From the NCBI GenBank assembly GCA_017881265.1, contig JADGRA010000014.1, positions 1 through 64,000 on the forward strand: DNA of 64,000 nt, read 5' to 3'. Below are positions 4,034 through 61,918 of the stretch, in pieces (position 1 is the first letter of the stretch; each line of letters opens with the position of its first letter). A model generated the notes under the pieces. It was given only the letters and a program-made list of their open reading frames with translations, did not search any database and was not told the origin of the DNA. The translations under genes were made by a program, and so were the position numbers. The stretch is from Myxococcaceae bacterium (GTDB lineage: Bacteria > Myxococcota > Myxococcia > Myxococcales > Myxococcaceae).

Positions 4034-4489
4034 TTAAGAATTGGGGTCAGGGCTGGGGTCAGAACTCTTCGCTCGACGTGCTCGCTTCGAGGCCCACTTC
4101 AGGTCACGAAGCGTGACTGGCCTGTCCACAACATCGCCTCGCGCCGCGCGTTCCTCGGACACCATCTCCTGTGCGACGCCCAGCCATCTCGCAAACGCGT
4201 CGCCGCTTGCCCACTCTGAAACCTCGCGTTTGAGTCCGTTTAGGTAGCGGTGCAGCGCCTCTCGCTGGCTGGCGATGGAGGGCGTCCCGGCGCCAACTTC
4301 GACGACGACGAAACATCCGTCCTGCAAGCCGCGCGCGAAGGCCTCCTCCGAGGTCCGGAACGTGTCGACGAGCCGTCCCCAGGAGATGAGCGCCCACTTG
4401 CCTCGATATCCCTCGTCGAGGAGCTGGGGCTCTAGCTGCTCGTAGGCCGCGAAGTCGAGGTGAACCCTGTAGTCCTTGGCCTTGGGCAT
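4034..4489 (-). CDS. Hypothetical protein inside tRNA-Glu element
   Basis: This is a 151-residue soluble protein from ATG 4489-4487 (MPKAKDYRVHLDF). The first 70 residues look like a compact alpha/beta domain (YRGKWALISWGRLVDTFRTS, then FVVVEVG). They are loosely reminiscent of DUF5678-like proteins, but I would not assign that family. The C-terminal half is helical and basic and ends in a Ser/Pro-rich tail. It lies at the left end of the element and is transcribed toward the tRNA. Its function is unknown. Confidence 0.55.
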   Translation of the reverse strand: MPKAKDYRVHLDFAAYEQLEPQLLDEGYRGKWALISWGRLVDTFRTSEEAFARGLQDGCFVVVEVGAGTPSIASQREALHRYLNGLKREVSEWASGDAFARWLGVAQEMVSEERAARGDVVDRPVTLRDLKWASKRARRAKSSDPSPDPNS

Positions 4490-4946
4490 GGCGACTCTCA
4501 GTCCTAGCCGACATGGGTGACGGACGCGGGGCCGAGGGTTCCTGCCAACGACACTTTCCGCACCGCGTCGGGAGGGCACTTTTCCGAGGCCCGGGACCAT
4601 CCGCGACGGCCGCATCCGCCAAGAGCCAGGACATGCTCCATGACCTGCCGAGCGGCTTACCTCAGAGGAGAAACGTCATCTTCGAACCTTCTGGCAGTCA
4701 GCCTGGCAGTCGTCGGCCGCGACGTTCAGGCCTGGCCGGAATTCAACCCGCGCGGTCGTCGGCGCCATCCCCCCAAGAAAGCGTGACACAGTCTCCTCCC
4801 CTCTGAAGATTAGGCCCAGAGAGGGTGTCTGGCACACGTCGGAGTACCGCCCACCTCGCAGGGTTAGCGTTTCGGCTCGCGGCAGCGGGCCCTGGAGCAA
4901 TCCGGAGGTGGGATGGGCGTACTGCGGCTGAACCCGGAGGATTCCG
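4490..4946. other. Non-coding stretch, no gene seen
   Basis: There are 457 bp between the 151-aa gene and the small membrane protein gene. The open frames here look like GC-driven shadows. The only recognisable signal is the ribosome-binding region GGAGG just before 4947. I see no repeat or RNA gene. Confidence 0.4.
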
Positions 4947-5515: not shown

Positions 5516-6535
5516 ATGGTTCTACTCGTCGCCATGTTCGGCTTGTTGCGCTCGGTCCTCGCCGGCCATGAGCTCGCGCTTGAGAACGTCGCACTCCGCC
5601 AGCAACTCGCTGTCTTACGGAGGCATCGGCCGCGGCCCAGTCTTCGCGTTGTCGACAGGCTGTTCTGGATGGCATTGGCGAGCTGGTGGCCGCGGTGGCG
5701 GGAGGTGTTGTGCCTCGTGAAGCCGGAGACGGTCATCGCGTGGCACCGGGCGGGTTTCCGCCACGTCTGGCGATGGCGCACGCGCAGAGGCGGGCGACCG
5801 CGTGCCGATGCCGCCATTCAAGCCCTCGTCCGAAAGATGGCCACCGACAACCCCTCATGGGGCGCACCGAGGATTCACGGTGAGTTGCTCAAGCTGGGCT
5901 ACCGCGTCGCCCAGTCGACCGTCGCGAAGTACATGCCGCGTCGGCCTCGGAGACCATCCTCCCAAACCTGGCGGAACTTCCTGCGGAACCACCTGTCACA
6001 GGCGGCCGCCATGGACTTCTTCGTCATCCCGACGGCGACATTCCAGCTGCTCTACGGCTTCGTCATCCTCGAGCACGCCCGTCGCCGAATCCGGCATCTT
6101 GCGGTAACCGCCCACCCGACGGCGGCGTGGACGCGCCAGCAACTTCGCGAGGCGTTCCCATTCGACACTTCATCCCGATTCCTCCACCGAGACCGGGACG
6201 GCATCTACGGCCACGCCGTCACGGAGACCATCAGGGCGATGGGCATAGAAGACGTGCCCATCTCGCCAAGAAGCCCTTGGCAAAACCCATACTGCGAGAG
6301 GGTCATCCGGACGCTCAGGCGCGAACTATTGGACCACGTCATCATCCTCAACGCGTCTCACGCACGGCGGATGCTGCGCGAGTACGTTGCCTACTACCTG
6401 CGAGATAGAACACATCTGTCACTGGCGAAGGATGCTCCTGAGGAGCGCGCCGTCGAGGCGCCCTGTGCCGGCGCTGTCAGTTCGCGCGAGGTGCTTGGCG
6501 GCCTGCATCACCGCTACTACCGCCGAGCGGCGTAG
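5516..6535 (+). CDS. IS transposase, integrase-core (DDE) family
   Basis: This 339-residue transposase starts at ATG 5516. The N-terminal part has a leucine-rich helix (ELALENVALRQQLAVLRRH) and an HTH-like segment containing KPETVIAWHRAGFRHVWRW. The rve integrase core follows, with the catalytic triad visible as MDFF (first Asp), HRDRDG (second Asp) and PYCERVIRTLRREL (Glu). The C-terminus HHRYYRRAA is typical of this IS group. It looks full length. I could not find clear terminal inverted repeats. Fragments of related copies lie at 6724-6796 and 13002-13630. Confidence 0.88.
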   Translation: MVLLVAMFGLLRSVLAGHELALENVALRQQLAVLRRHRPRPSLRVVDRLFWMALASWWPRWREVLCLVKPETVIAWHRAGFRHVWRWRTRRGGRPRADAAIQALVRKMATDNPSWGAPRIHGELLKLGYRVAQSTVAKYMPRRPRRPSSQTWRNFLRNHLSQAAAMDFFVIPTATFQLLYGFVILEHARRRIRHLAVTAHPTAAWTRQQLREAFPFDTSSRFLHRDRDGIYGHAVTETIRAMGIEDVPISPRSPWQNPYCERVIRTLRRELLDHVIILNASHARRMLREYVAYYLRDRTHLSLAKDAPEERAVEAPCAGAVSSREVLGGLHHRYYRRAA

Positions 6536-6723
6536 TGCAAGCCGCACGCAGCCTACGAGGTCAAGCCTGGGGCTCGACGGGCGTTCAGCGCCTAGCGGTT
6601 TTCTGGCGGCGACCATAGTTTGCCGCCTACCGCCCGGCAGCTCGCCGCGCTGGTGACCTCATTGGGGCGCAGGCGTCGTGTGTACGCACTCGTAGCTCGC
6701 CTTTCAGCTTTCGGTACGGACAG

Positions 6724-6796
6724 GCGGAGTGCGACGTTCTCAAGCGCGAGCTCCTGGCCGGCGAGGACCGAGCGCAACAAGCCGAACAGGCGACGA
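6724..6796 (-). mobile_element. Fragment of IS transposase 5' end, inverted
   Basis: About 73 bp read on the minus strand match the beginning of the 5516 transposase gene almost exactly. The translation is LLRSVLAGQELALENVALR against LLRSVLAGHELALENVALR. The rest of that copy is missing. Two inverted partial copies 1.1 kb apart show repeated IS insertion and deletion here. Confidence 0.7.
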
Positions 6797-6820
6797 CAAC
6801 TACATCACGCATCGTTCCAG

Positions 6821-22083: not shown

Positions 22084-22899
22084 GTGCGTTTGTTGATGGT
22101 CGCGTTTTTGGCCTCGGCCGTCGGATGCGTGAAGCCGAATCCGGTGGAGATCGTCCAGCCGCTCGAGACCACGCTGGGCGCCGGCGTACCAGCGGCGTAT
22201 TTCGCTGCAGTCTCGATGGCAGCGCTGAATGGTCGCCCGTCTCCGTGCGCGAGGGTGGTCACGCCGGCCGGCTCGGGGGGACTCGTTCGCGTCGACGTCA
22301 GCCTCGGCCCCCCCTGTCCGCCCATGCTCGGCGCCGAAGGGAGTGGCACGGCGGTCGTCACCGGCACCTGGACTCCCCAGCTAGCGACCTTCGTCATGGA
22401 CTTTACGGGTCTTTCGTACGGCGCTCGCCAGATGCTCGTGGTTGGGATCGCGTCGATGACAGTCGCGCCCGTGAACAGCACTCACCTGGCTATCGCTTAC
22501 GGTGAAGAGGACATCTTGGTGGGGAACGGCAACACCGGGGGCGCCGGCGTCAAGCAAGTCGCATGGGTGGTAGACGTTGACACTGCAGGCACGGATGACC
22601 CGGCCGACGATTCGATCGCGATTTCCGGCGGCGATCAGACCCTCTTCGCGACCGGCGCCACCACGCCGGCAGCCGACGTGACGCAGGTTGCCATGGGCGA
22701 TGCCTTCTTCACGGCAGGGTGCCGCAAGAACCCCAGCTCGGGTGTCGCTGCGGTCCAGCGCGCCGGCACCAAGGGTGGCGGTTGGGTGCTCTTCAGTTTC
22801 CACGAAGCCTGCGACGGCACTGCGAATGTCGTTGCCGCGCTGGCGCCCTACCAATTGCTCATCACTGACTCGCTTCCGCTCGCATTCCTCCAGCCGTAG
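22084..22899 (+). CDS. Lipoprotein, hypothetical
   Basis: This protein has 271 residues from GTG 22084; the frame is open upstream to TTG 22066, and an internal ATG at 22096 is also possible. The N-terminus VRLLMVAFLASAVGC is a type II signal peptide with a lipobox. The mature part is beta-rich, with Asp/Gly-rich turns (VVDVDTAGTDDPADDSIAIS) that could bind calcium, and three internal Cys. The exported product would sit on the inner or outer membrane. No family was recognised. It converges on the sterol-type gene cluster. Confidence 0.65.
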   Translation: MRLLMVAFLASAVGCVKPNPVEIVQPLETTLGAGVPAAYFAAVSMAALNGRPSPCARVVTPAGSGGLVRVDVSLGPPCPPMLGAEGSGTAVVTGTWTPQLATFVMDFTGLSYGARQMLVVGIASMTVAPVNSTHLAIAYGEEDILVGNGNTGGAGVKQVAWVVDVDTAGTDDPADDSIAISGGDQTLFATGATTPAADVTQVAMGDAFFTAGCRKNPSSGVAAVQRAGTKGGGWVLFSFHEACDGTANVVAALAPYQLLITDSLPLAFLQP

Positions 22900-22969: not shown

Positions 22970-23929
22970 CTAACTGCCACCACGCCGCTTGCGGTAATAC
23001 GCCGACATTCCCAGCATGTATTCGCGCACCACCGGCTGCGATAGCCGAGCGAAGGAGCGCTTCCACCCCAGGAGCGCTGCGACGTCGCGCACGATGTCCT
23101 CGAAGCTGTGGCGTTGGTACTGGAAAACTCGCTGGCTCTCCTCGGTGTCGAGCCAGTCGGTGCAATAGGGTGTGGTGCTAAAGGCAGACTCGGGCAGCGG
23201 CCCCCCCATCTCCATCGCCGCCATGAACTTGGCCAGGTAGTCGCCGTATTTCACCTGGCAGCGCGGGCCGCCCCCAACCAGCCACACCTTGCCCCACGTC
23301 TCCTCCATTGTGGCGCCCCTCGCGGTCACGAGGCCTGCGTCGTGAGGGTGGAGCGTCTCCATCCGCTGCGAGAGCGGAATCTCAAACATGATTGGCACCG
23401 GCTGGCGCAACGCGAGGGGGGGCACGTCGGCGTAACGAAAGATGGCCCAGCTGAGCCCGCTCTCGCGCACCAGCGCCTCACAAGCCAGCTTGTCCTCAGT
23501 GTAGGTGTCGGTCGCGCTGACCGAGTCGGTCACCTTGCGCGGCGGAGGCTGGTCGGCAGTGCGACCAAACACGTCGAGGGAAGAGGCGAACAGAAATTTT
23601 GCACCCGGCGCGTGGGCCTTGGCCGCCTCGAGCATATTGCGAGTGCCATCGACGTTCACCTTGCGCGCCTCGTCGGGTTTCTCGAGGCACGCCGGTGGAA
23701 TGATGTATGCCAGGTGCACGACTCGGTCGACGCCGCGCAGCGCTGGCGGCAGCGTCTCGGGCCGGGTGACGTCGCCGCGCACCACCTCGACCTTGCTCCC
23801 CCAGGCCTTGGTAAGCCTGGAGTCGGGCGCTCCGAAGCTGAGCGCGCGGACGCGATGGCCGAGCTTTAGCAGCGCATCGACGCTGTGGCTTCCGATGTTT
23901 CCAAATGCGCCGGTGACGAGGACGTTCAT
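22970..23929 (-). CDS. NAD-dependent epimerase/3-beta-HSD-like SDR
   Basis: This 319-residue extended SDR starts at ATG 23929, directly after the stop of the ERG2-like gene. The Rossmann motif is MNVLVTGAFGNIGSHSVDAL. The Asp motif reads VEVVRGDVTRPETL, the central strand DRVVHLAYIIPP, and the catalytic part has FASSLDV (Ser) and TYTEDK (YxxxK). The length and motifs fit the NAD-dependent epimerase/3-beta-hydroxysteroid dehydrogenase superfamily. Sugar epimerases and cinnamoyl-CoA reductases share this fold, so sequence alone cannot settle the substrate. Its position in a cluster with sterol isomerase-like and 5-alpha-reductase-like genes suggests oxidation or reduction of a steroid 3-hydroxyl. 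Confidence 0.8.
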   Translation of the reverse strand: MNVLVTGAFGNIGSHSVDALLKLGHRVRALSFGAPDSRLTKAWGSKVEVVRGDVTRPETLPPALRGVDRVVHLAYIIPPACLEKPDEARKVNVDGTRNMLEAAKAHAPGAKFLFASSLDVFGRTADQPPPRKVTDSVSATDTYTEDKLACEALVRESGLSWAIFRYADVPPLALRQPVPIMFEIPLSQRMETLHPHDAGLVTARGATMEETWGKVWLVGGGPRCQVKYGDYLAKFMAAMEMGGPLPESAFSTTPYCTDWLDTEESQRVFQYQRHSFEDIVRDVAALLGWKRSFARLSQPVVREYMLGMSAYYRKRRGGS

Positions 23930-24604
23930 TCAGCGGAAGAACTTGATGTTTTCCTTGGGAATCTCGGGGACCTCGGGCCGCGGGCGTAACCTTTCGGTCA
24001 GGGTTCGGGCGGCCGCGCTCACCAGCGAGAAGGGTTTCTTGAGCGGCGCGTAGCGACGGCCCAGGCTCTGGCACACAAGGTCTGTGTAGAGAGTGAGCGT
24101 CTGGGCAGCGGTAACCCAGTCCCAGCAGCTGAGCAGCTCGTCGGCGACACCGAACGGCAGGCTGTACGGAATCAGCCCACGCGCGTACTCGACCGCCCAT
24201 ACGCCGTCGGTGAAGTTCATCGCCCGGGCCTGGCCGGGGCCCACGTAGATGCGGTCCCCCGGCTTGTAGACGGTCTTCTCGAACTGACCTTCGCCGTAGT
24301 ACCAGGCCTCTCCGTCAAGCACCGTGTCCCAGAAGCCGGTGAGGTGGCGCCCGGAGTGCCCCTCCGAGCCGATGGGCGTTCCCCAAATCATGATGTATTC
24401 GTGAATCGAGGCGTAATAGAGCTTCATCTGAATCATCGCGCCGCCCGCGATGCTGTAGAGCCAGGGCTGACCGTGATCGAGAACGTCCGGGTACTCCTGG
24501 TCCATCGCAGAGGCGAACACGTCGAACATTTCGGGCTTGGTGTGCCCGAGGCTCTTCATCGCGCAGGCGTGGACTACGTCGGGGTCGAAGACGTACTGGG
24601 GCAT
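23930..24604 (-). CDS. ERG2/sigma-1 receptor-like sterol isomerase
   Basis: This 224-residue protein starts at ATG 24604. Residues 53-180 follow the ERG2/sigma-1 receptor family closely. SIHEYIMIWGTPIGSEGHSG corresponds to human [20 protein letters not shown], FWDTV to ISDTI, GDRIYVGPGQARAM to GETVVHGPGEATAV, and WAVEYARGLIPYSLPFGVAD to [20 protein letters not shown]. D93 and E139 occupy the places of sigma-1 Asp126 and Glu172, the ligand-binding acids. The eukaryotic N-terminal membrane anchor is missing. Yeast ERG2 moves the sterol double bond from C8 to C7; the same reaction is a natural proposal here. The next gene abuts it. Confidence 0.85.
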   Translation of the reverse strand: MPQYVFDPDVVHACAMKSLGHTKPEMFDVFASAMDQEYPDVLDHGQPWLYSIAGGAMIQMKLYYASIHEYIMIWGTPIGSEGHSGRHLTGFWDTVLDGEAWYYGEGQFEKTVYKPGDRIYVGPGQARAMNFTDGVWAVEYARGLIPYSLPFGVADELLSCWDWVTAAQTLTLYTDLVCQSLGRRYAPLKKPFSLVSAAARTLTERLRPRPEVPEIPKENIKFFR

Positions 24605-24668
24605 GGGCTCCTCGAAGGAGAAAACGCGGCGGGTACCGTGTAGCGCCCCGCTGCGGGCCTAATCAAGC

Positions 24669-25475
24669 TCAGTGTCGCCGGGTGGCGAACTTCTTCGTCT
24701 GTGCGGCAACCATCCGCAGCCTCGTCGCGCGGGGCAGCGGGGCCAGCAGCCAGGTGGTCAGCCGGTTGAACAGACCTGGCACCACCCGCGGGCGCCTTCC
24801 CAGCGCCCCCAGCGCGGCGCTCACCACGTGCTCCGGGTTCATCGCCGGGGGAAACGAGGACGTCCGCACCTGCGCGTAGGTGGGTGTTTCGGTCGGCCCC
24901 GCGGCGCAGGTGACCACATCCACGCCCCGCGGCTCGAGCTCCGCCCAGAGGCTGTCCCCGAAGTTCAGGAGAAAGGCCTTCGACCCGGCGTAGGTGGCCG
25001 AGTACGGAGAACCGATGATTCCCGCCACCGAAGACATCAACACCAGGCCGCCCCGCCCGCGCACCGCCATCTGGCGGCCAAACAAGTGGGCGAGAACCAG
25101 CGGGGCCCGGACGTTCACGTCCACCGAGCGCAGCACGTCGTCGAGTTCGAGCTCGAGAAAGCCCGACATCAGCGAGAGGGCCGCGTTGCAGACCACCAGA
25201 CCGACTTCCAGGTCCCTGGTGCCCTCTGCCACCGCCGCGAGAAGCCCGGGAGACGTCAGGTCGAGCGCAAGCACCTTCGTCTGGACCCGGTGCTTCTGGG
25301 ACAGCTCCGCCGCCAACGACTCGAGCGGTCCCCGGCGGCGGGCGAGGAGCACCAAACTCAGCCCACGCTGGGCCAGCGCACGAGCGAAGTACGCGCCGAT
25401 GCCCACCGACGCGCCCGCCACCAGCGCCCACGGGCCATAGCGGGCCAGGAAGCGCGGGCCCTTCAGAGCAGCCAT
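24669..25475 (-). CDS. Short-chain dehydrogenase, HSD17B12/ketoreductase-like
   Basis: This 268-residue classical SDR starts at ATG 25475, overlapping the upstream 5-alpha-reductase-like gene by 13 bp. The cofactor motif is ALVAGASVGIGAYFARAL, with LLARRRGPLESLAAEL favouring NADP(H). CNAAL replaces the usual NNAG. The catalytic Ser is in VLMSSVAG and the YxxxK in YAGSK. Overall it resembles the very-long-chain ketoacyl or 17-beta/3-keto-steroid reductase branch (COG0300). The C-terminal basic segment (RATRLRMVAAQTKKFATRRH) may contact the membrane. In this cluster a keto-steroid reductase role is plausible but not proven. Confidence 0.8.
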   Translation of the reverse strand: MAALKGPRFLARYGPWALVAGASVGIGAYFARALAQRGLSLVLLARRRGPLESLAAELSQKHRVQTKVLALDLTSPGLLAAVAEGTRDLEVGLVVCNAALSLMSGFLELELDDVLRSVDVNVRAPLVLAHLFGRQMAVRGRGGLVLMSSVAGIIGSPYSATYAGSKAFLLNFGDSLWAELEPRGVDVVTCAAGPTETPTYAQVRTSSFPPAMNPEHVVSAALGALGRRPRVVPGLFNRLTTWLLAPLPRATRLRMVAAQTKKFATRRH

Positions 25476-26221
25476 GGGAGGACCGCGCGGCGCTCCGGCG
25501 GGTAGTCGGGGAACGTCAGCTTGTACCAGCGGTGGTGAGAGAGCGCGCGCGGCAGCAGGTTGGCCGCGGTGAAGAGGAAGAACGACAGCCCCGCCAGCGA
25601 CCAGGTTGCCACCGCCCAGGCGCCCCACTCGATGAGCTCACCGAGGTAGTTGGGCGCCGATACCCAGCGGTAGGCGCCGCCGAACGGAATCCTGTAGCCG
25701 GTCTCGCCCGGCTTCCGGAGGGCGAAGAGGATGTTGTCGGAGCGAATGTTGATGGCCATGCCAGTGGCGAACAGCGCCACCCCGATGATGAAGCGGGGGT
25801 CCATAAACCAGCTCATTTCATAGTGTCCCAGCTGCGATATCCACCGCGCATTGACGTAAGCGTTGAGCAGATTGAAGGTAATCGCCATCGCCGCCACCGA
25901 CAGCGGCATCGGCTTCTGCCCAGCCTTCAGCCGCAGCGGGTAGATGAACGCCCGATGTGCGTAGTGCGTGAGCCACATGGCCGCCAGGGCGAGCGGCACT
26001 GGCTCCAGGGCGTGGGCACCGGCCGCGTAGATGCAGGCGAAGGCGAGCGCGGCGGGGCTCTCCATCACCATCCAGCCAACGCGGTTGGAAATCATGATTC
26101 CCCAGCCGGCGCGGGTGTGACGGCCGTAGGGAGCCACCACGAGGAAGAGCGAGATGAAAACCATCGCGCCGACTGCGATTAGTCCCCAGGCAACCCAGTC
26201 ATGGACCTGAAGTTCATTCAT
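25463..26221 (-). CDS. Steroid 5-alpha-reductase (SRD5A/DET2)-like protein
   Basis: This 252-residue membrane protein starts at ATG 26221. It has six to seven helices, and the C-terminus is the family signature. GYRIPFGGAYRWVSAPNYLG is followed by ELIEWGAWAVATWS and ends in SHHRWYKLTFPDYPPERRAV. Human SRD5A1 has the same order (YKIPRGGLFEYVSAANYFGE, HHEWY, YPKFR). The NADPH-binding Asn/Arg region (INIRSDN) is present. The family reduces the C4-C5 double bond of 3-oxo-delta-4-steroids; related bacterial proteins may reduce other enones. It is first in the four-gene cluster, and its stop overlaps the next start. Confidence 0.83.
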   Translation of the reverse strand: MNELQVHDWVAWGLIAVGAMVFISLFLVVAPYGRHTRAGWGIMISNRVGWMVMESPAALAFACIYAAGAHALEPVPLALAAMWLTHYAHRAFIYPLRLKAGQKPMPLSVAAMAITFNLLNAYVNARWISQLGHYEMSWFMDPRFIIGVALFATGMAINIRSDNILFALRKPGETGYRIPFGGAYRWVSAPNYLGELIEWGAWAVATWSLAGLSFFLFTAANLLPRALSHHRWYKLTFPDYPPERRAVLPWLL

Positions 26222-26559: not shown

Positions 26560-27117
26560 ATGTCGTCGCCAAGTCGCGTCCTGCCGAAGCGGAGACGATG
26601 GGGTGGAGCGGAGGCGCGGCGATGCGCGCTGGCCATTCTCTGGGTGACGGTGTCGCTGGTCGGCTGTGACGCGCCTTCCACCTTCGTGGTGCTCGACAAC
26701 CGGTATCCAGAGTCGGCGACCAATGCGGCCGTGGTTTACCAGGCATTCTGGCAAGCCATCTCGTTTCAGACGCCCATCGCGCCGGGCTCATCGTCGAGCC
26801 CACAGAGCACCATTGCCGCATCGAGCAACCTGGCCTACGTCGTCCTCGCCCCAGGGTGGGACCCGACCAGTGCCAAGCCACCGACGGCCCTCGTCGTCAT
26901 GCAGTCGCGCAGCGGCTTCTCCGTCAGCCTCAACCAGACGCTGCACATTCCCGTCGATGACGCCACTTTCGCCGGCAACTGTGCGGCCGGAAGCGTCCTC
27001 TCCCAGGCGGAGGCGAACTTTCTTACGGAAATCGTGTTTGCACCTCTCTTCATGGCCGTCAGCTACGACGCCGCGACCTGCACCTCCACACCCAAGAGCG
27101 ACGCCGGCGGGTCCTGA
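26560..27117 (+). CDS. Lipoprotein upstream of OprB-like porin
   Basis: This 185-residue protein starts at ATG 26560; a long spurious upstream extension of the frame is ignored. A basic N-region is followed by a hydrophobic core and lipobox (LAILWVTVSLVGC). The mature part is largely beta/helical with two Cys near the end (NCAAG and ATCTS). The stop overlaps the porin start by one base (TGATG). No family was recognised. It probably forms an envelope operon with the porin and the next outer-membrane protein. Confidence 0.65.
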   Translation: MSSPSRVLPKRRRWGGAEARRCALAILWVTVSLVGCDAPSTFVVLDNRYPESATNAAVVYQAFWQAISFQTPIAPGSSSSPQSTIAASSNLAYVVLAPGWDPTSAKPPTALVVMQSRSGFSVSLNQTLHIPVDDATFAGNCAAGSVLSQAEANFLTEIVFAPLFMAVSYDAATCTSTPKSDAGGS

Positions 27118-53868: not shown

Positions 53869-55584
53869 ATGCCGCGAACGATGGAGCGCCGGCACTATGC
53901 CGAGATTTACGGTCCCACCACGGGGGACCGGGTCCGACTTGGCGACACCGACCTCATCCTCGAGGTGGAACGGGATTTCGGCACCCCGGGCGACGAATGC
54001 ATGTTCGGTGGGGGCAAGGTGCTCCGGGAGGGAATGGGGCAAGCGGCCGGCGTGGATGATCGCGGCGCCCTCGACTGCGTCATCACCAACGCCTTGGTCC
54101 TCGACTACTCAGGCATCTACAAGGCCGACATCGGCGTGAAGGGCGGTCGCATCGCCGGCATCGGCAAAGCGGGAAACCCGGACGTCATGGCGGGCGTGAG
54201 CCCGAGCATGGTCGTGGGCGTCACGACGGAGTGCATCGCCGGCGAGGGGCTCATCCTCACGGCCGGGGGCATCGACAGCCACATCCATTTCATCAGTCCG
54301 CAGCAGGCTGAGGAGGCCATCGCGAGCGGCGTGACGACCTTCATTGGTGGTGGCACCGGTCCAGCAACGGGCACGTGTGCCACGACCTGTACACCGGGGG
54401 CCTTCTTCATCGAGCGGATGCTGCAGGCGACCGACGGCTTGCCGCTGAACATCGGGCTCCTCGGCAAGGGGAATACGTCGCTTCCCGAAGGGCTGTCTGA
54501 GCAAATCCTCGCTGGCGCCGTAGGTCTCAAGCTTCACGAGGACTGGGGGACCACGCCCGCAGCCATCGACGCGTGCCTTCGTGTCGCAGACGCGGAGGAC
54601 GTTCAGGTGGCCATCCACACGGATACGCTGAACGAGTCGAGCTGCGCCGAGCACACCATCGCCGCGTTCCGCGGCCGCACCATCCACACCTTCCACAGCG
54701 AGGGCGCTGGCGGTGGTCACGCGCCGGACATCCTCCGGGTCTGTGGCGAACCGAACGTCCTGCCGTCTTCAACCAACCCGACCCGCCCGTTCACGGTGAA
54801 CACGCTGGACGAGCACCTCGACATGCTGATGGTGTGCCACCACCTCGACCCCGCCATCCCGGAGGACGTGGCGTTTGCGGAGAGTCGCATCCGAGGCGAG
54901 ACCATCGCTGCGGAGGACATCCTTCACGACCTGGGAGCGATCTCCATGATGTCGAGTGACTCCCAGGCCATGGGTCGCGTCGGAGAGGTGGTGACCCGCA
55001 CCTGGCAGACAGCCGACAAGATGCGGCGACAACGGGGCCGCCTCCCCGAAGACACCGGCGACAACGACAATTTCCGCATCCGCCGCTTCGTGGCCAAGTA
55101 CACGATTAATCCCGCCATCGCCCACGGAATCTCCCACCAGGTCGGTTCGGTGGAGGTGGGGAAACTCGCGGATCTCGTCCTTTGGAAGCCAGCCTTCTTC
55201 GGGGCCAAACCGGAGATGGTGATGAAGGGCGGCGTCATCGCCTGGGCGCAAATGGGCGACCCCAATGCCTCCATTCCGACCCCTCAACCCGTTCGCATGC
55301 GGCCGATGTTCGGCAGCTTCGGAAGGGCGGTCGGTGCCACTTCCCTCGCTTTCGTTTCGCGGGCCTGCGCCGAGGGCGGCGTCGCAGCGCGCTATGGACT
55401 CACGAAGCAGATCGAGCCGGTGAGAAAATGCCGGGGGCTGGGCAAACGCGACATGCGCCTCAACGACACGCTGCCGAAAATCGAGGTTGACCCGGAGACC
55501 TACGAAGTTCGGTCAGATGGCGTTCTGTTGACTTGCGCACCCGCAGTTTGGCTTCCGCTCGCGCAGCGATATTTCCTCTTCTGA
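53869..55584 (+). CDS. ureC: Urease alpha (catalytic) subunit
   Basis: This 571-residue protein starts at ATG 53869 with GGAGGAGG upstream. All active-site residues can be seen. H138/H140 ([12 protein letters not shown]) and the carbamylated Lys K221 ([14 protein letters not shown]) bind nickel, as do H250 ([11 protein letters not shown]), H276 ([16 protein letters not shown]) and the Asp in [16 protein letters not shown]. The flap Cys-His is in MVCHHLD. Length is standard. It hydrolyses urea to ammonia and carbamate with two Ni2+. Confidence 0.96.
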
Positions 55585-59945: not shown

Positions 59946-60764
59946 GTGGCGTCCGCTGCTCCTGTGGCCAATTCAAGCGGCGCCGCCCTGGTGACGGGCG
60001 GCTGCTCGGGGATTGGCAAGGCCCTCGCTCACCGGCTCGCCCTTCGGGGCTACCCGCTGCTTCTCGTGAGCGAGCGCTCCGACCGGCTCGAGACCGCTGC
60101 CGCGGAGATTCGGACCGCCCATGGCGTGCTTGTCCACGTCCTCTGCCTCGACCTTGCCCGGCCGGACGCTGCGCAGGAACTCCACCGTCGCGTGCAGACC
60201 TTGGGACTGGAGGTGGATATTCTCGTCAACAATGCCGGCATCTTTTTTTTCGGCGAGGCTGCCGACGCCCCGACGGACCGGGCGAATGCGCTTTTGCAGC
60301 TGCAGGTGGTCACCCCTTCTCTCCTCTGCACGCTCTTCGGTCGAGAGATGCGGGAACGGGGGCGGGGCCACATTCTCATCGTCTCGAGCATCTCGGCCTG
60401 GCGCGACTTCCCGGGCATCGCCTACTACGGCAGCAGCAAGCGCTACCTGCGCGGGTTTGCCCGGGCCCTGCGCAGCGAGATGGGCGTTCACGGCGTTGGC
60501 GTCACGTGCCTCGCTCCGGGGCCGACGGCCACGGCGCTGTACGGCACCGCGCCGGAGACGTTGCGGCGCGGACGGCAACTCGGACTGTTCCTCGAACCAG
60601 AACGGGTCGCCGAGGTCGGCCTGCAAGCGCTGTTTGCTGGCCGTGCGGAATGCGTCCCAGGCATCATCAACCGTCTGCTCGCCCACGCTGCGGCGCTGAC
60701 GCCGCAGTGGGTGGTGGACACCATTCGCCGCCGCGCGTCGTGGCTGAGGGTTCCGCAGCGATGA
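59946..60764 (+). CDS. Short-chain dehydrogenase, COG0300-like
   Basis: This 272-residue classical SDR starts at GTG 59946; the frame is open further upstream, so the start is uncertain. Motifs: ALVTGGCSGIGKALAHRLAL, LCLDLARPDAAQEL, DILVNNAGIFFFG, the catalytic Ser in LIVSSISAWRDFPG and YYGSSK (YxxxK). It resembles the SDR of the sterol-type cluster (24669-25475) in type. The flavoprotein gene that follows overlaps its stop (ATGA), so the two are cotranslated. The substrate is unknown. Confidence 0.8.
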   Translation: MASAAPVANSSGAALVTGGCSGIGKALAHRLALRGYPLLLVSERSDRLETAAAEIRTAHGVLVHVLCLDLARPDAAQELHRRVQTLGLEVDILVNNAGIFFFGEAADAPTDRANALLQLQVVTPSLLCTLFGREMRERGRGHILIVSSISAWRDFPGIAYYGSSKRYLRGFARALRSEMGVHGVGVTCLAPGPTATALYGTAPETLRRGRQLGLFLEPERVAEVGLQALFAGRAECVPGIINRLLAHAAALTPQWVVDTIRRRASWLRVPQR

Positions 60765-61918
60765 GTCTGGCCTTCACGCCCTTCACGCTGGCCGGGCTCC
60801 AGCTGCGCAACCGTCTGGTGAAGCCAGCCACTTTCGAGGGGATGTGCCCTGGCGGCATGCCGTCGGAGGCGCTGGTCGAGCACCACCGGCGGGTGGCGGA
60901 GGGCGGTGCGGCGATGACCACGGTGGCCTACGCATCCATCTCGCCCGATGGGCGCAGTTACCCGACCCAGCTGCTGCTTCGACCGGACGCGGTCGCCGGG
61001 CTTCGCCGTCTCACCACCGCGGTGCACCGAGAGGGTGCGGCCGCCTCCCTTCAAATCGGCCATTGCGGCTACTTCGCCGACCGGCGCCTCGTCGGCGGGA
61101 GGCCCCTGGGGGCGTCACGTCGCTTCAACGCCTATGGACTCTCCTTCGCCCGCGCGATGACCGAGGCACAGCTCGAGCGCGTCATTGGCGACTTTGCGCA
61201 GGGGGCGCACATCGCCGCCGAGGCCGGCTTCGACGCCGTCGAGCTGCACTTTGGCCACGGGTACCTAGTCTCGCAGTTCCTCTCGCCCTACACGAATCGG
61301 CGTCGCGACCGATGGGGAGGCTCCCTCGAAAACAGGAGCCGCCTGGCGGTGGAGGTGTTGCGAGCGGTGCGGCGGGTGGCCCCGCGCCTGGTGGTGCTGG
61401 CGAAGGTGAATCTCCGTGACGGCTTCCCCGGTGGCTTGGAACTGGCCGAGTCGATGCAGGTGGCGCAGCACCTGGAAGCCGAGGGCATCGCAGGCCTGGT
61501 GCTCTCCGCCGGTTTCGTCTCCCGGACGCCGCTCTACATGCTGCGTGGTGAAGTTCCCCTTGGGCCGATGATGGCGGCGCAGGACCGCTGGTGGGCGAAG
61601 GCGGGCTTGTTTCTCTTCGGCAGGCTCTTCGTGAAGGCCTACCCCTTCGAGGAGGGCTTCTTGCTACCGGAGGCCCGGTACATGCGTGCCTCGGTGAAGC
61701 TGCCCCTCGTCCTGCTGGGTGGCATCAAGTCGCAAGTCACCATCGACCAGGCCCTGGGGGAGGGCTTCGAACTGCTGGGGATGGGACGGGCCCTTCTCCA
61801 CGACCCGGACTTGCCACGGAAGCTGGAAGCGGGCGCGGCCTCCCGCTCCGGCTGCACTCCCTGCAATGAATGCATCGCGGAAATGGACCGCGGGGGGGTG
61901 CGCTGCACCCGGCGGTGA
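60761..61918 (+). CDS. NADH:flavin oxidoreductase, old yellow enzyme family
   Basis: This 385-residue protein starts at ATG 60761 within the SDR stop. OYE motifs: FTLAGLQLRNRLVKPATFEG, LQIGHCGYFADRRLVGGRP, AGFDAVELHFGHGYLVSQFL, SPYTNRRRDRWGGSLENRSR and VLLGGIKS with LLGMGRALLHDPDLPRKL. The C-terminus has CTPCNEC, then a Cys ten residues later (RC). This matches the 4Fe-4S ligands of 2,4-dienoyl-CoA reductase-type members, but the FAD/NAD domain of those is absent. It should reduce an activated C=C bond with FMN. Coupling to an SDR suggests sequential reduction of an enone. Confidence 0.85.
   Translation: MSLAFTPFTLAGLQLRNRLVKPATFEGMCPGGMPSEALVEHHRRVAEGGAAMTTVAYASISPDGRSYPTQLLLRPDAVAGLRRLTTAVHREGAAASLQIGHCGYFADRRLVGGRPLGASRRFNAYGLSFARAMTEAQLERVIGDFAQGAHIAAEAGFDAVELHFGHGYLVSQFLSPYTNRRRDRWGGSLENRSRLAVEVLRAVRRVAPRLVVLAKVNLRDGFPGGLELAESMQVAQHLEAEGIAGLVLSAGFVSRTPLYMLRGEVPLGPMMAAQDRWWAKAGLFLFGRLFVKAYPFEEGFLLPEARYMRASVKLPLVLLGGIKSQVTIDQALGEGFELLGMGRALLHDPDLPRKLEAGAASRSGCTPCNECIAEMDRGGVRCTRR

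Follow-up and report, generated by a model that had tools for sequence, protein, structure and literature searches.

A myxobacterial gene block encoding ERG2/sigma-1-type and SRD5A-type proteins and its possible role in steroid ring remodelling

Main

Here we describe a compact gene block from a Myxococcaceae bacterium, in which a protein of the ERG2/sigma-1-receptor family (P0002) is encoded together with an SRD5A-type membrane reductase (P0004) and two short-chain dehydrogenases/reductases (SDRs; P0003 and P0001). The block lies in the first 64,000 nucleotides of contig JADGRA010000014.1 (assembly GCA_017881265.1), the stretch referred to here as the window, which is part of the contig numbered C31 in our analysis. 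We propose, at a probability of about one half and from sequence comparison, that the four genes form one operon that would remodel rings A and B of a sterol or steroid via a 3-ketone. What we observe directly is the gene block itself, two family memberships, the predicted fold of P0002 and a recurring neighbourhood.

In the proposed pathway, P0001 would oxidize the 3-hydroxyl to a 3-ketone, P0002 would use two buried acids to move a double bond within the rings through proton transfer, P0004 would reduce a double bond in conjugation with this ketone, yielding the 5-alpha form, and P0003 would turn the ketone into an alcohol again. The net result would be the conversion of an unsaturated sterol into a 5-alpha-reduced (stanol- or delta-7-stenol-like) sterol. 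The shift made by P0002 could be the one known from yeast, delta-8 to delta-7, or one from delta-5 to delta-4, the latter completing a route to stanols, and the substrates could be sterols made by the cell or taken up. We infer the order and direction of these steps, their substrates and their products.

Results

Organization of the gene block

The four minus-strand genes at 22970-26221 (Table 1) bear out, to the base, the arrangement given in a preliminary description of the window. The two genes of the first pair have 13 bp in common (25463-25475), a gap of 64 bp (24605-24668) separates the pairs, and in the last pair the TGA stop codon of P0002 is followed immediately by the ATG of P0001. 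All four genes start with ATG. The nearest gene calls on either side (22096-22899 and 26644-27117) are both on the plus strand, and the four genes therefore stand as a single block. Their base composition resembles that of the window (GC content of 0.661 for the block and 0.656 for the window; GC at third codon positions of 0.83-0.87 in the four genes) and thus gives no sign of an insert. No sigma-70-like site was found, and terminator-like sites (3, versus 2.5 in shuffled sequences) were near the shuffle level; we therefore claim no transcription signals.

Table 1 Genes of the block, in order of their position on the minus strand
Gene	Protein	Length (aa)	Position in window	Strand	Remark
P0004	SRD5A-type (Steroid_dh, PF02544) membrane reductase	252	25463-26221	-	First gene of block
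P0003	Classical SDR	268	24669-25475	-	Proposed 3-keto reductase
P0002	ERG2/sigma-1-receptor family	224	23930-24604	-	Proposed ring double-bond isomerase
P0001	Extended SDR (Epimerase / 3Beta_HSD)	319	22970-23929	-	Proposed 3-beta-hydroxysteroid dehydrogenase

P0002 is an anchor-free member of the ERG2/sigma-1 family

P0002 matched the Pfam profile ERG2_Sigma1R (PF04622) with an E-value of 8.3e-49 and 166.2 bits (cut-off 21), so that the family assignment made in the preliminary description holds; the profile had no match in any of 14 control genomes (0/14), and P0002 matched no NCBIfam model. The solved structures closest to P0002 by sequence are sigma-1 receptors (human sigma-1 receptor, E 4.1e-27). 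An AlphaFold model, built from an alignment of bacterial homologues, had a mean predicted local distance difference test score of 88.2, and in a Foldseek search with this model sigma-1 receptors occupied ranks 1-42, with cupin-type proteins below them (best match, a sigma-1 receptor, E 2.8e-19, template modelling score about 0.78). The model predicts a cupin-type barrel with C-terminal helices, as in the sigma-1 receptor. The likeness of P0002 to the ERG2 family was measured on the profile and the sigma-1 receptor.

Across 21 bacterial homologues, not all of them complete, 22 alignment columns are invariant. D93 and E139 of P0002 are conserved in 21 of 21 and align with D126 and E172 of the human sigma-1 receptor, the equivalents of which we take to be the catalytic acids. 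A protein of genome G177 that is 18% identical (L049) was excluded from the alignment and from the tree described below, and the 21/21 counts are without it; this protein and another divergent match (L042, 38% identical) were retained in the genome counts.

Eukaryotic ERG2/sigma-1 members carry an N-terminal membrane segment at the first profile positions. In P0002 this segment is missing: profile positions 1-20 are unmatched, the match runs from position 21, and the first helix of the model spans residues 8-16, with no N-terminal transmembrane segment found. We therefore place P0002 only in the wider ERG2_Sigma1R family. At the other end, 43 residues of P0002 extend beyond the end of the profile match. 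Compared over what we take to be the pocket residues of the sigma-1 receptor, P0002 keeps the equivalents of Tyr103 and Tyr206 along with both acids, and has Val in place of His154 and Ala in place of Trp89. The sigma-1 receptor has been called an evolutionary isolate with yeast ERG2 as its sole known homologue (PMC10094450).

P0004 is closest to steroid 5-alpha-reductases

P0004, described in the preliminary account as steroid 5-alpha-reductase-like, matched the Pfam profile Steroid_dh with an E-value of 9.5e-53 and 178.7 bits (cut-off 22.6) and had no match in NCBIfam. Its best solved structures are 7c83 (PbSRD5A; E 3.4e-80) and 7bw1 (SRD5A2; E 7.5e-44). PbSRD5A is a bacterial enzyme for which reduction of progesterone has been reported (PMC7815742). 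We aligned P0004 and 16 relatives from ERG2-bearing genomes with PbSRD5A and human SRD5A2 and mapped the functional residues from the list in the same article; four loci, namely L088 (the window's own copy), L100 and L103 (no BLAST hit) and L102 (a fragment), did not enter the motif count. P0004 shares with PbSRD5A and human SRD5A2 the catalytic Glu and Tyr and all eight NADPH residues (8/8), with Gln replaced by Met. Glu57 and Tyr91 of the published Q-E-Y site are present in all 17 bacterial rows, and some relatives deviate at one or more of the NADPH residues.

Both oxidoreductases are SDRs of looser assignment

P0003 matched Pfam adh_short with 112.9 bits. Its earlier label, HSD17B12-like, fits only loosely; the nearest NCBIfam model among the matches listed (25 of 214) is mycolate reductase, at 132.7 bits where the cut-off is 380, and none of those listed exceeds its own cut-off. 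Three solved structures fell under E 1e-25, and their names are those of generic SDRs or of an alcohol dehydrogenase. P0001 carries the YxxxK motif in its sequence (Y143, K147), and among the NCBIfam matches listed for it (25 of 32) none is over its own cut-off. Relatives of P0001 that are 47-49% identical sit in blocks with ERG2 or SRD5A homologues.

The position of mycolate reductase as nearest model raises the question of a non-steroid substrate, with P0004 and the SDR acting on a long or branched acyl chain or on a polyprenol and the ERG2 fold merely binding a hydrophobic ligand. The Met-Glu-Tyr site of P0004 would agree with this, as would the sigma-1 receptor, which to our knowledge shares the fold without known isomerase activity. 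We consider this alternative unlikely, given that P0004 is far nearer to the SRD5A structures than to an enoyl-CoA reductase (22of, E 3.9e-8), that both acids of P0002 are invariant, and that solved sigma-1 receptor entries include one with a steroid (8w4b, the title of which names progesterone).

ERG2 homologues are scattered over several bacterial phyla

Of 195 Myxococcota genomes, 9 contain PF04622; within the source genome's own family it was found in the source genome only, which has a single match in a profile search of its contigs. A pattern search with P0002 over one genome per species (84,980 species) returned 18 loci; this search catches close relatives only, and its counts are a lower bound. 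Thirteen of the loci were additional to the earlier set (7 from Actinomycetota, 3 from Spirochaetota, 2 from Myxococcota and 1 from a metagenome-assembled genome (MAG) of Chloroflexota), and the named actinomycete strains are Rugosimonospora africana and Amycolatopsis alkalitolerans; in the former, one block holds ERG2 together with a 3-beta-HSD-like gene and SRD5A. The set of ERG2 genomes (n=22) comprises Myxococcota, Actinomycetota, Spirochaetota and the one Chloroflexota MAG, with loci L050, L056, L063, L064 and L065 counted once with genomes G002, G006, G046, G044 and G045, because their contigs are as long as those of these genomes. Three of the MAGs (G196, G198 and G199) probably come from termite guts, as papers on termites contain the sample codes Lab288 and Md513.

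Resolution in a tree of 21 ERG2 proteins was poor: 5 of the 18 inner branches were starred, and L042 sat on a very long branch. One set of nine rows that mixes Myxococcota, Actinomycetota, Spirochaetota and Chloroflexota nevertheless had support of 98/99, and the rows labelled Myxococcota require at least 2 changes (L062 being ungrouped). Because the tree mixes phyla, it fits horizontal transfer of ERG2, although misbinning of MAGs may add to the mixing. A tblastn search with P0002 found no match among 72,556 plasmid records. Elsewhere, ERG2 has been reported in several steroid gene clusters of sponge symbionts (PMC9531527), and homologues for C-8 isomerization in a Calothrix cluster (PMC10202945).

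With 38% identity to the protein of the window, the L042 protein, encoded at 4092-4652 (-) in genome G003, represents a divergent second type of ERG2 in bacteria. It scored 212 bits against the Pfam ERG2 model, compared with 167 for the window's protein, and its genome has no match to the cyclase model.

Parts of the block recur around ERG2

Neighbourhoods in the 22 ERG2 genomes were mapped by tblastn with the four window proteins, with codon-scored gene calls around the loci; automatic clustering of open reading frames was replaced, as antisense frames in GC-rich DNA swamped the clusters. The counts are lower bounds, since some loci reach contig edges. A P0003-like SDR lies ≤2 kb from ERG2 in 8 of the 22 (the window, L051, L052, L053, L055, L060, L062 and L066), a P0001-like SDR is in the ERG2 block in 7 (the window, G044-G047, L057 and G203), and an SRD5A gene is certain in the block in 5 (the window, G046, G047, L057 and G203). 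G045 has an SRD5A fragment at a contig edge 3 kb off, and G002 an SRD5A gene 8 kb off. In G203, a Micromonosporaceae MAG, ERG2 and one end of an SDR gene are on one contig, the other SDR end, a 3-beta-HSD-like gene and an SRD5A gene are on another, and the ends of these contigs have 127 identical bases in common.

Strong SRD5A matches (≥157 bits) occur anywhere in the genome in 16 of the 22. Among Myxococcota, SRD5A (E up to 1e-25) was found in 48 of 195 genomes (0 of 14 controls), with 8 of the 9 ERG2 genomes carrying it versus 40 of the 186 others (Fisher p 6e-5 by genome). ERG2 and an SDR are adjacent in G196 and G199, which have no SRD5A match, and the two may therefore also work as a pair. 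The preliminary description had proposed a short bacterial pathway; the recurrence of cluster parts across phyla argues for one pathway, with the SDR labels now looser and a simple biosynthetic reading weakened.

Several results weigh against the operon as proposed. In P0004, Gln56 of the Q-E-Y site is Met, as in 15 of 17 bacterial rows (Gln is retained in L095 and L099), and the substitutions Q56A and Q56L abolish the activity of human SRD5A2 (PMC7815742). We therefore use the name SRD5A-type rather than 5-alpha-reductase. Given its frequency in these rows, Met at this position is, on the alignment, a clade trait, and the resulting Met-Glu-Tyr site is perhaps suited to another substrate. P0001, previously labelled 3-beta-HSD-like, does match 3Beta_HSD (64.2 bits, cut-off 22) but scores higher as Epimerase (83.1 bits), 3Beta_HSD being one among several extended-SDR profiles that it matches. 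All four genes occur together in only 2 of the 22 genomes (the window and G203). No SRD5A match at E 0.001 was found in G177, G196, G198, G199 or G207, and that in G204 is weak (30 bits). Last, counted by genus, which is the fairer figure, the association of ERG2 with SRD5A is weak (p 0.03).

Sterol genes elsewhere in the source genome

It is possible, if improbable, that the block belongs to late de novo sterol synthesis, with P0002 isomerizing delta-8 to delta-7 sterols once lanosterol has been demethylated and the remaining enzymes completing the nucleus. The reported ERG2 genes in sponge-symbiont steroid clusters are consistent with this, as are genes elsewhere in the source assembly (4.44 Mb, 95.69% complete). 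The genome search for a cyclase and a squalene epoxidase suggested in the preliminary description was mostly positive, with both on contig C20. The single oxidosqualene cyclase there scored 856 bits (cut-off 851), on a model that matched in 2 of 14 controls, never above the cut-off. About 3 kb from it lies a squalene-epoxidase-family gene (86.3 bits), the assignment of which rests on its location beside the cyclase because E. coli and Caulobacter, two of the 14 controls, also score above the cut-off of the Pfam model; a phytoene/squalene-synthase-like gene, read from the sequence, lies between the two. Contig C39 carries one ERG4/ERG24-family (PF01222) gene (167.5 bits; profile in 0 of 14 controls), the best solved match of which is the delta-14-sterol reductase 4quv (E 6e-33). 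The PF01222 match as reported spans one TGA, and a 360-residue open frame from just downstream covers the match.

Other features of this genome and of the ERG2 set argue against late synthesis. At the positions of Thr381, Cys449 and Val453 of human lanosterol synthase, the cyclase has Tyr, His and Ile, of which Tyr and His presumably belong to the cycloartenol triad. Ile453 is a mark of cycloartenol synthase (PMC10152446). Two P450 genes were found, neither of them CYP51-like among the structures listed (28 of 28; best 60 of 127), although at 95.69% completeness CYP51 may be absent from the assembly only. Against the SdmB model, the best score was 192.8 bits, where 600 are required. The combination of a lanosterol-type cyclase and CYP51, taken as the criterion for de novo lanosterol-type synthesis, was thus not found in the source genome, and on this basis endogenous delta-8 sterols are not predicted, with loss of a gene from the assembly possible. 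The missing Gln of the published Q-E-Y site in the reductase also speaks against late synthesis.

Across the ERG2 set, cyclase matches of more than 500 bits were seen in only 4 of 22 genomes (the window's, G006, G197 and G205), and the cut-off was passed by none of the 21 others (0/21). The remaining genomes had a match of about 190 bits (3 genomes; probably squalene-hopene cyclases), a trace (1) or none (14). With strong matches in so few, the module appears not to be generally tied to sterols made in the cell, barring missed kinds of cyclase or incomplete MAGs, and its having spread to genomes that lack a cyclase match suggests uptake of sterols. The occurrence of cluster parts in such genomes would also agree with an operon that begins the breakdown of environmental steroids (hormones or phytosterols), using the same reactions for a catabolic purpose and fitting 3-ketosteroid chemistry. 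We regard this as quite unlikely, as 5-alpha reduction and the return to an alcohol run, from general pathway knowledge, opposite to ring opening.

Many genomes of 9-14 Mb in the family of the source genome carry cyclases. Matches to FA_hydroxylase (n=4 in the source genome; over the cut-off in 2 of 14 controls) were not used as ERG25 or ERG3; three of the translations, judged by eye, resemble generic desaturase or fatty-acid hydroxylase proteins. Two called genes from the cyclase on C20, at 6059-6808 (-), L004 encodes a membrane protein that weakly matches PEMT, DUF1295 and Steroid_dh (22-27 bits) and is a candidate sterol-tailoring enzyme. On contig C69, the sequence of a P450 encoded by L070 (1225-2916, +) reads as having a Rieske-ferredoxin-like part at its N terminus.

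Within the window, a second SDR gene directly precedes one for an Old-Yellow-Enzyme-type FMN oxidoreductase (PF00724, 167.7 bits) at 59964-61918 (+). Old-Yellow-Enzyme-type enzymes include steroid double-bond reductases; the pair lies 34 kb from the four-gene cluster, and we claim no connection. An Rfam hit at 54040-54315 (-), to 5' ureB small RNA (81.9 bits, E 1.2e-19), lies antisense to the gene called at 53881-55584, which by eye resembles urease alpha; the hit may reflect only conservation of the coding sequence.

Discussion

We favour a four-gene operon for remodelling of rings A and B. In a more specific form, which we put forward tentatively and hold to be doubtful, the ERG2 fold would have been recruited as a delta-5 to delta-4 3-ketosteroid isomerase, giving a complete, horizontally spread pathway from delta-5-sterols to 5-alpha-stanols that would be independent of sterol synthesis and use a Met-Glu-Tyr reductase.

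The conversion of cholesterol to coprostanol in the gut by IsmA and SpiR ends in a 5-beta product. It comprises 3-hydroxyl oxidation, isomerization and reduction via a 3-ketone (PMC13079761), and the proposed cluster chemistry would likewise oxidize, isomerize and reduce via a 3-ketone. The delta-5 to delta-4 isomerization of that route is carried out by an SDR, whereas the window cluster has an ERG2-fold protein and an SRD5A-type reductase. No description of ERG2 beside SRD5A in bacteria was found in the open-licence literature, consulted mostly as titles and abstract openings. Like Enhygromyxa, Sandaracinus and Minicystis, with their sterol pathways, the source organism is a member of the Myxococcota with a cyclase. 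For Myxococcaceae, downstream sterol proteins are stated to be absent except for Bsr in Cystobacter (PMC12004948); by contrast, the source genome holds ERG2, SRD5A-type and PF01222 genes.

The gene content therefore departs from the published view that Myxococcaceae leave their cyclized sterol unmodified (PMC12004948). The anchor-free, conserved bacterial branch of ERG2, found partly in blocks of steroid-type oxidoreductases, would offer tractable enzymes for the chemistry of this fold. Should the products be 5-alpha-stanols, stanol biomarkers could be left by bacteria that do not synthesize sterols.

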